From assembly GCA_963169195.1 (NCBI GenBank), contig CAUJDN010000030.1, positions 140,943 to 204,942 of the forward strand: a stretch of 64,000 bases of DNA, in the 5' to 3' direction. A program made the position numbers and the translations under genes. The DNA comes from Acidobacteriota bacterium (GTDB taxonomy: Bacteria > Acidobacteriota > Vicinamibacteria > Vicinamibacterales > UBA2999). Below, piece by piece: positions 31,090 through 46,094 of this stretch. How positions within the stretch are numbered: position 1 is the stretch's first letter; each line of letters begins with the position of its first letter. A model generated the notes under the pieces. The model worked only from the letters and a program-made list of their open reading frames with translations, did not search any database and was not told where the DNA came from.

Positions 31090-31185
31090 ACGCGCCACCG
31101 CCGCCTGCAGGCGCGCGTGATACCCGCCGATATCATGTGTACAGCGAATGGATGGGCCTACCAGAAAAGACGTTTGGTTGACAAC

Positions 31186-31229
31186 CACAAACGCTTTGTG
31201 CTTGACAAGCGGCTTTTCTCATCCATAAT
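31186..31229 (+). promoter_or_regulatory. sigma70-like promoter with adjacent upstream dyad (candidate operator)
   Basis: -35 TTGACA (31202-31207), 16 nt, -10 CATAAT (31224-31229); CACAAA-CGC-TTTGTG dyad 31186-31200; another TTGACA at 31178. Confidence 0.55.
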
Positions 31230-31333
31230 CTACATCTGGTATGAGGGCGTAAGGCTCAGACCACGGCTTGTGAAGCTCTACAACCTCGAGCCGGGTTGCC
31301 ATCAGGCGGAGCCAGGCCCCTTCAGGAGGAACA

Positions 31334-31390
31334 ATGGCGAAGAAGGCAAAGAAGGCGGCGAAGAAGAAGGCTGCGAAGAAGAAGAAGTAA
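31334..31390 (+). CDS. 18-aa Lys/Ala-rich basic microprotein (MAKKAKKAAKKKAAKKKK)
   Basis: SD AGGAGG 5 nt upstream of ATG; all Lys codons AAG; followed by strong intrinsic terminator; paralogue at 31582. Confidence 0.65.
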   Translation: MAKKAKKAAKKKAAKKKK

Positions 31391-31406
31391 GCCACGCCGC
31401 TTACCA

Positions 31407-31439
31407 GGGGCGGTTGTTCACGACTGCCCCACCTTTTTT
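31407..31439 (+). terminator. Intrinsic terminator after microprotein 1
   Basis: GGGGCGGTTG-TTCA-CGACTGCCCC (10-bp stem with two GU pairs) followed by ACCTTTTTT. Confidence 0.8.
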
Positions 31440-31581
31440 CCGCATCGCGCGCTCACGGGAGGCGCGCAGCAAGGCGCAGGGGAGCCGGCACCCGCGAGCC
31501 GAGTGCCAGGCGGCAGAGGCTACCGCAGGTGGCGCGGCGAATCCTGACGCATAACCCAACCTGAAGGGGGGGATACGACCG

Positions 31582-31638
31582 ATGGCAAAGAAGGCGAAGA
31601 AGGCGGCCAAGAAGGCCAAGAAGGCGAAGAAGCGGTAA
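31582..31638 (+). CDS. 18-aa Lys/Ala-rich basic microprotein (MAKKAKKAAKKAKKAKKR)
   Basis: G-rich SD region upstream; first 11 residues identical to microprotein 1 with only synonymous changes; followed by strong terminator. Confidence 0.65.
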   Translation: MAKKAKKAAKKAKKAKKR

Positions 31639-31663
31639 GCTTCTCGTTGCCGGAAGATCGACG

Positions 31664-31692
31664 AAAGGGGGCGCCACCGTGCGCCCCCTTTT
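31664..31692 (+). terminator. Intrinsic terminator after microprotein 2
   Basis: AAAGGGGGCGC-CACCGT-GCGCCCCCTTTT. Confidence 0.88.
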
Positions 31693-31734
31693 GTTGTGGC
31701 GGGGCCTCGCGGCGCGCCGCCGCCCTCACCCGCC

Positions 31735-33816
31735 TCAGCGCGCGTCGGCGCCCACCCACGCCACGCCGTCCCAGATCCTGACGCTGCGGACGGCGTCCCA
31801 CTGCTGCAGGCGATCCACCACGTCCATCCCGGCCACGACCTGGCCGAACACAGTGTAGCGACCGTCGAGGTGCGGCTGCGGCGAATGGGTGATGAAGAAC
31901 TGGCTGCCGCCCGTGTCGGCCCAGTCGAGCGCCATCCCGACCGTACCGCGAAGGTACGGCCGCTGGTTGATCTCGTCCCGCATGGTGTAACCCGGCCCAC
32001 CTTCCCCGTCGCCGCGCGGATCGCCGCCCTGGACGACGAAGTCGGGCACGACGCGGTGCCACGGGATGTTGTTGAAGAAGCCCTTGCGCGCGAGGGCCGT
32101 GAAGTTCGCCACGGTTCGCGGGGCATCGACGACGGCGAGCTCGAGCTCGATGACCCCCTTTTCGGTGTCGATGTAGGCGCGCGGCGAGTACGCGGGTGAG
32201 ATCAACCCGTCGATCGCCGGCGGCTCGGGCACGGGCGGCGCCGGCGTGGCGGGGGTCGCATCGGCCTGCGGATCGAGTCGCGCGAGCAGCTGCGCCGCGC
32301 GAAGGCGGACGGCCCAGTCCTTGTCCGCCAGCGCGGCGGTGAGTGCCGGCCGCGCGGCCGCCGCGTCCAGCGTCGCCAGCGCCGACAGGATGGCCGCGCG
32401 GGCGACGTAGGTGCCGTCACGACCGGCCACGTCGAGCGCCGCCGTCAGCGCGGCCACCTGGTCGGTGGCCTTCAGCCGTGCGAGGCCGTTCGCCGCCGCC
32501 ATCCGCACGACGGGATCCTCGGCGGCCAGCCGCGCGGACAGGACCGCCCGCGCCGACTTCGCGCCGCTGGCGGCCAGCGCGGCCAGCACCGACGGCATGA
32601 CCCGCTGGTCCTCGTCACCCCGCATGTCCGTGAGGCGCGCCTCACCGCGATGGTCCGGCAGCTCGCCCAGCGCGGAGGCCAGCGCCGCGCGCACGGACCA
32701 GTGCGGATCGGCGTCGAGCCCCGAGATGGCGGAGATGAACATGTCCGGATCGACGCGGGCCATGGCGACCAGGGCCGCCGCGCGCATCGCGGGCCACGGG
32801 GCCGACGCCAGCTCGATGAGCGCATCCATCGCCGCGCCATGCCTCACCTGCCCAAGGGCGACGACGGCCTCCAGCTGGAGGTTCGGGTCGAGCTTCGGCG
32901 TGGTGACAATCTTCATCAGCGCCGCGCCGCTCTCGGTGCGCCTGATGGCGCCGAGGGCTCGCACGGCCTGGACGCGCACCGCGGCCGGCTCGGCCTCGCC
33001 GACCGCGAGGGCGGTGAGGGCGGGAAGCGCGGCCACGTGCTCGAGCGCGCCCAGCCCTCGGGCAGCGAAGGCGCGCGTCACCTGTCCCTCGCCCTGCAGC
33101 AGGGCCATCAGTGTGCCTGCCGCGCGCGGGTTCTCCAGCCGCTGAAAGGCGTACGCCACGGGCCACCAGCGGCTGCGCGGCTGGCCGGTCGCGTCGAGCA
33201 GGGTTGCCGCCAGCTCGTCGTAGGCCCCGAGCCGCACGAGCGCATACATGCCCAGGCGCACGGCTTCGGCCGCCGCGTCCTTCGGATGGCCGACATCGTC
33301 GGCCGCGATCCCGGCAAGCGCCCCCGCGCCGATGTGCGCGGACATCATCGCGGCAATCTCCGCCGCGGCCGGCTCGTGGCCGAGCATGCCGAGGGCCTCG
33401 GCCGCGCGGCCCTGGAGCAGCGGATCCGGCGTGGCGAGCGCGGTGACCAGCGCCGGCGCGGCGCCGGCGCGGCCGATGAGGCCGAGCGCGAACGCCGCCA
33501 TCTGGCGCACTTCCGGGTCGGCCTCGGATGTGAGCATGGCGGTCAGCGGGCCCACCGCGTCTGGCAGGCGCGCGCGGCCGGCGGCCAGCGCCGCACGCCG
33601 GCGGATGTGCGCCTGCGAGTCGGCGAGCATCGCGATGAGATCCTGCCCGGGAGTGGGCCCCCGAGCGACGCGCTGGTCTTCGAGTTCCAGGATCCAGGCG
33701 AGCTTCTGGGCGGCGGTGGGTGGCGGCGGCTCGGCCGCGATGTCGGGACCCGGCTGCGGGCCGCAGCCGTGCGCGAGCAGCACGACCGCGAGTACGCCCG
33801 CGCGTCGCCACGTCAT
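31735..33816 (-). CDS. HEAT-repeat protein with C-terminal cyclophilin-type peptidyl-prolyl isomerase domain
   Basis: MTWRRAGVLAVVLLAHGC lipobox; HEAT-like repeats; C-terminal GVIELELAVVDAPRTVANFTALARKGFFNNIPWHRVVPDFVVQGGDPRGDG...SQFFITHSPQPHLDGRYTVFGQV. Confidence 0.9.
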   Translation of the reverse strand: MTWRRAGVLAVVLLAHGCGPQPGPDIAAEPPPPTAAQKLAWILELEDQRVARGPTPGQDLIAMLADSQAHIRRRAALAAGRARLPDAVGPLTAMLTSEADPEVRQMAAFALGLIGRAGAAPALVTALATPDPLLQGRAAEALGMLGHEPAAAEIAAMMSAHIGAGALAGIAADDVGHPKDAAAEAVRLGMYALVRLGAYDELAATLLDATGQPRSRWWPVAYAFQRLENPRAAGTLMALLQGEGQVTRAFAARGLGALEHVAALPALTALAVGEAEPAAVRVQAVRALGAIRRTESGAALMKIVTTPKLDPNLQLEAVVALGQVRHGAAMDALIELASAPWPAMRAAALVAMARVDPDMFISAISGLDADPHWSVRAALASALGELPDHRGEARLTDMRGDEDQRVMPSVLAALAASGAKSARAVLSARLAAEDPVVRMAAANGLARLKATDQVAALTAALDVAGRDGTYVARAAILSALATLDAAAARPALTAALADKDWAVRLRAAQLLARLDPQADATPATPAPPVPEPPAIDGLISPAYSPRAYIDTEKGVIELELAVVDAPRTVANFTALARKGFFNNIPWHRVVPDFVVQGGDPRGDGEGGPGYTMRDEINQRPYLRGTVGMALDWADTGGSQFFITHSPQPHLDGRYTVFGQVVAGMDVVDRLQQWDAVRSVRIWDGVAWVGADAR

Positions 33817-44358: not shown

Positions 44359-46094
<1,736 letters not shown>

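Follow-up and report, generated by a model that had tools for sequence, protein, structure and literature searches.

The window analysed here, a stretch of 64,000 nucleotides, holds two neighbouring ORFs for Lys/Ala microproteins. We propose that they are tandem paralogous genes for polycationic microproteins without a domain, equivalent to a free-standing histone H1-like tail that would bind nucleic acid, a reading which, judged from sequence, stands at about even chances. Genes that are old, syntenic, and under selection can encode peptides of about 15 residues drawn from no more than two or three amino acids, and annotation pipelines overlook them; the twins, singles, and natural loss described below offer a clean comparative system for the role of a bare H1-like tail in bacteria.

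The ORF pair and its peptide family

ORF1 (31334-31390, + strand) encodes the 18-aa microprotein MAKKAKKAAKKKAAKKKK and ORF2 (31582-31638, + strand) the 18-aa microprotein MAKKAKKAAKKAKKAKKR, with a gap of 191 bp when the sequence is read directly and a net charge of about +10.5 per 18-residue peptide. The preliminary description had pointed to both Lys/Ala ORFs, to the use of AAG at all 21 of their Lys codons, and to their common first 11 residues, in which codons 2, 5, and 9 differ and do so synonymously only, and each of these points was borne out. The start pattern MAKKAKKA (up to one mismatch) has three matches in the 5-Mb genome, namely ORF1, ORF2, and the N-terminus of a SWIB-domain protein. 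Since the pattern is so restricted, and since a search of relatives for tandem MAKKAKK-like ORFs found the pair conserved in related genera, the pair is not a chance occurrence. The longer overlapping ORFs at 31117-31554 (+ strand) and 31401-32126 (- strand) were rejected, as no alternative frame is open in all relatives (maximum 38 of 68). The SWIB-domain protein, of 118 aa, lies on another contig (L003, 1501-1857, G000:C33) and has an N-terminal MAKKAKK lysine-rich tail; its domain is matched by Pfam at E 5.7e-30, and similar proteins occur in related genomes.

Under the criteria applied, between one and three microORFs were recovered at each of 80 of the 81 loci, 134 in total, of which 131 start with MAKK and 122 end with KKR. 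Their composition is 49% K, 28% A, and 7% G, and their lengths of 14-60 aa differ in the alignment by whole codons, with start and stop kept. K/G forms (e.g. MAKKTAKGGKKKGGKKR) are found in families f2, f5, f9, and f11, long AKK/VKK repeats of up to 60 aa in f14, and forms with some proline in f15. Pfam and NCBIfam contain no family match to the microproteins, and matches in PDB were set aside as designed or unrelated lysine-rich proteins only.

Selection at the level of the peptide, previously suggested from the single pair, is now strongly supported. Same-length orthologues differ 454, 707, and 1625 times at codon positions 1, 2, and 3, with 1157 synonymous vs 800 non-synonymous codon differences, a tally that is descriptive because the orthologue pairs are not independent. 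In 16 of the 53 twins the two copies give identical peptides despite 3-8 codon differences, all synonymous, and selection therefore acts on the peptide. Twin similarity within a genome exceeds all 2000 within-family permutations, in which finer phylogeny is uncontrolled. Gene conversion in the past, followed by silent drift, could contribute to twin identity, the peptide still being what is kept. Start, stop, and frame, on whose conservation in relatives the preliminary description had staked its proposal, are retained across the 134 ORFs.

Promoter, leader and translation signals

A near-consensus promoter of the sigma-70 type, TTGACA-N16-CATAAT, lies at 31202-31229 (+ strand) with 11 of 12 consensus matches (0.0 expected by shuffling), and 24 bp upstream of its main -35 element is a TTGACA repeat (31178-31183, + strand) that reads TTTTTGACA in most orthologues. 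The spacer through -10 into the leader start forms the block TTCTCATCCATAATCTACATCTGGTATGAGGG (31216-31247, + strand), and in the alignment of relatives the ORFs are preceded by the conserved block TTTGTGCTTGACA-N-TTCTCATCCATAATCTACATCTGGTATGAGGG. Across the 81 loci, column identity is 0.93-1.0 in the promoter TTGACA block and core and lower in the spacer, while the upstream repeat block reaches 0.70, against a background of 0.35-0.37; conservation is higher in promoter and leader than in the ORFs. When TTCTCATCCATAATCTACATCTGGTATGAGGG was searched across 193 genomes of the class with up to three mismatches, one copy per genome was recovered in 81, all of the same order, and none with the reversed pattern used as control. 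The core of TTCTCATCCATAATCTACATCTGGTATGAGGG has a single match in its own genome, and a regulon sharing the block was therefore rejected. The exact promoter pattern is absent outside the order among the phylum's sampled genomes, and the scan of this window listed no promoter-like site between ORF1 and ORF2. At the sister-order loci L239 and L240 the promoter-start region retains CTACATCTAGTATG, and in the sister-order genome G029 CTTGACA is mirrored by TGTCAAG downstream.

The 5' leader (31232-31333, + strand) probably forms an H-type pseudoknot, as judged from a 58-sequence alignment, although the structure is weaker in this genome. Its architecture consists of a hairpin GGGUGG/CCACCY, the loop GCUCAGC of which pairs with a downstream GCUGAGC, and it ends shortly 5' of the Shine-Dalgarno. 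Within the alignment P2 is paired in 91% and P1 in 87%, and 89% of cells are paired vs 32-46% when the pairing is slid. Covariation is 0.121 vs 0.097 +/- 0.007 in shuffled alignments and exceeds all 500 shuffles, and compensatory changes are confined to two pairs of P2. P1 is weak in this genome, in genus g3, and in family f15, and the candidate P2 here joins GGCTC (31253-31257) with GAGCC (31309-31313), both on the + strand. RNAalifold alone recovers four pairs of P2 only, because pseudoknots lie beyond its model. Neither the locus nor any of 12 orthologous loci matched Rfam 15 above the gathering score, and weak matches at E<=5 in the locus were taken as chance; a leader uORF starting GTATGAGGG was rejected by eye on the alignment, its frame and stop not being conserved. 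Elsewhere in the window a TPP riboswitch (45981-46094, - strand) scores above the Rfam gathering threshold.

The Shine-Dalgarno regions reported earlier are present as AGGAGG (31324-31329, + strand) before ORF1 and GAAGGGGGGGAT (31563-31574, + strand) before ORF2. With the 16S 3' end of the same genome (GGATCACCTCCTTTCT, located by pattern), the former would form a duplex of about -10 kcal/mol and the latter one of about 12 nt and -17 kcal/mol; this predicted pairing identifies the G-run upstream of ORF2 as an extended Shine-Dalgarno. Each ORF had also been credited with its own terminator, a description that does not extend to all relatives. The terminator scan gave an intrinsic-terminator-like hairpin with T-run after ORF1 (GGGGCGGTTGTTCACGACTGCCCC-ACCTTTTTT, 31407-31438, + strand), and a terminator-like hairpin after ORF2 (AAAGGGGGCGCCACCGTGCGCCCCCTTTT, 31664-31692, + strand), unlisted by the scan, was read by eye and is conserved in position and type. 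This second hairpin is probably common to the convergent gene. The first hairpin has no T-run in genus g3, and read-through into ORF2 is therefore likely in that genus. Between terminator 1 and ORF2 lies the element GTGCCAGGCGGCAG (31503-31516, + strand), found in 31 of 53 twins and 8 of 10 single-ORF2-type loci, and conserved in about 40 loci.

Synteny, loss and possible function

The locus with the conserved promoter block occurs once per genome and at the same chromosomal position in 81 genomes; the MAKKAKKA pattern is found in 20 of the 193 class genomes, with twins in genera g1, g2, and g3. Across this order of soil Acidobacteriota the neighbours are conserved: upstream lie tgt, ddl, and/or a TPR-protein gene, and downstream lies a convergent HEAT-repeat/cyclophilin gene (Pfam), beyond which a dNK gene is found in most genomes. 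The region was reached via the cyclophilin gene in 30 further or unmatched genomes: most of the sampled genomes of the order without a strict block match carry microORFs behind a diverged block, and in the sister-order genomes G004, G029, and G031 ORFs of the MAAKKKAKKAAKKKK type lie close by. The second-type ORF stands alone in several f3 genomes and f14 has mostly the first type alone, and by this survey some microORF copy is retained almost everywhere. Within f14, the genomes sampled from genera g77 and g84 have no gap between ddl and the cyclophilin gene, which abut directly, and the KKG[A/G]KKR* end is absent from them; judged by this gene order, the microORF locus is cleanly lost in one clade. 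One locus (L056, in G083) carries three consecutive microORFs rather than two.

As the microproteins lack a folded domain and match no family, what likens them to H1 is their composition and the way their repeats behave. In known H1-like proteins, lysine-rich repeats account for differences in length and the tails bind nucleic acid; in Hc2 and AlgP lysine-rich repeats vary, and such tails associate with nucleic acid or polyP (PMC2848022, PMC9239181). Like chlamydial Hc1/Hc2 and Bordetella BpH1, the microproteins are Lys/Ala-dominated low-complexity sequences whose length varies by in-frame gain and loss of repeats between conserved ends, and like the repeat region of Hc2 they have no globular domain. 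Hc1 and AlgP have an N-terminal domain and Hc2 exceeds 150 aa (165-237 aa), whereas the microproteins span 14-60 aa with no Pfam or NCBIfam match. They differ further in having tandem twin genes with a dedicated promoter and leader, and their DNA binding is putative. They are polycationic disordered repeats in the manner of the C-terminal tails of AlgP and PhaF, whereas the KPAA repeats of those tails are attached to another domain and the microproteins are free-standing. The same N-terminal AK motif begins the L003 protein, which, unlike the microproteins, carries a SWIB domain and is encoded elsewhere in the same genome. The resemblance to AK-rich tails of H1-like proteins, first proposed from two peptides, is strongly supported by the longer orthologues, which grade into such sequences.

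A domain-less, H1-tail-like binder is favoured because lengths form a continuum from 14 aa to long lysine-rich repeat proteins, the repeats vary in frame, and a SWIB protein shares the tail. It also agrees with order-wide synteny, one promoter block per genome, peptide-level selection, lengths grading up to the 60-aa f14 proteins, and the coexistence of 22-aa forms with 110-152-aa lysine-rich proteins in Cytophagales; on the other side, the MAKK/KKR ends and leader pseudoknot equally fit a ribosome-associated protein, and one clade does without the locus. Both ORFs lie behind one dedicated near-consensus promoter, with a structured leader before ORF1 and an unusually long Shine-Dalgarno before ORF2, and on this reading both peptides would be made in quantity. 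Disordered and positively charged, they may bind DNA and/or RNA non-specifically, and this binding could compact or shield the nucleic acid or balance its charge. It is possible that the pseudoknot beside the ORF1 start tunes translation, perhaps via the peptide itself, and that a leaky first terminator and a strong second start site balance the dosage of the two copies.

The main rival, which we consider rather unlikely, is that these are lineage-specific ribosomal or ribosome-associated microproteins, in the style of bTHX, bS22, and bL37, that thread into rRNA and are autoregulated via the leader pseudoknot. The three named proteins are tiny, very basic ribosomal proteins of fixed sequence, and the microproteins share their small size and basicity; most orthologues begin with MAKK and end with KKR, and the locus has a strong dedicated promoter, a probable pseudoknot beside the start site, and a conserved chromosomal position. 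However, the interior consists of a repeat that expands freely (14-60 aa) and has no position-specific residues, two near-identical copies would be unusual, the locus is cleanly lost in one clade, and NCBIfam, Pfam, and PDB gave no relevant match to a known ribosomal family. It is more doubtful still that the peptides serve as polycations for a different polyanion, polyphosphate for example, or as general counter-ion peptides of the sort suggested for the AlgP tail; their composition resembles that tail, whose action is on polyP granules (PMC9239181), but the conserved neighbours include no gene for polyP.

The remaining alternatives concern the transcript. Conservation of promoter and leader above that of the ORFs, together with the probable pseudoknot, could point to a structured or regulatory RNA as the functional entity with the ORFs incidental; this is very improbable given the third-position excess, the in-frame length variation, the kept start and stop, and the identical peptides made via different codons. 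Transcription-attenuation leader peptides would fit the anatomy of a short Lys-rich ORF followed by a terminator, yet we give this reading hardly any credence, because the downstream gene is the convergent cyclophilin gene wherever covered, except in the rearranged G081, and no conserved co-directional operon follows.

Similar ORFs beyond the order

The family had been supposed to be wide and unannotated, and its occurrence throughout the order, in sister orders, and as similar short ORFs in other phyla, with no library match, strongly supports this. Among the matches listed from GTDB species genomes, short MAKKAKK...KK ORFs are found in Cytophagales/Bacteroidota, Alphaproteobacteria, Planctomycetota, and others, many of them preceded by plausible start regions, and tandem twins occur in at least two Planctomycetota records. 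Given such composition, convergence of AK microORFs across phyla is quite possible. Within the papers covered, a literature search turned up neither a mention of MAKKAKK nor a description of this locus. A broader proposal, offered tentatively and with less confidence than the H1-tail-like reading itself, is a global polycation system in which two domain-free peptides of about 14-20 residues, evolving together, would serve the nucleoid or ribosome as an abundant cofactor, their dosage set by the unique promoter, the leader pseudoknot, and the extended Shine-Dalgarno. Comparable AK microproteins would then have arisen or been retained in several phyla, too short for gene callers to list. Cyclobacteriaceae relatives (L300-L317) have 22-42-aa AK ORFs and 110-152-aa lysine-rich proteins in separate places, mostly starting GCTATGGC. 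Tandem MAKKAKKK... microORFs with a common upstream block containing GACTTCCGATAATCT were seen in a Phycisphaerae record (L101, 1868-2004) and in a record titled Leptolyngbya (L138, 5420-5571).
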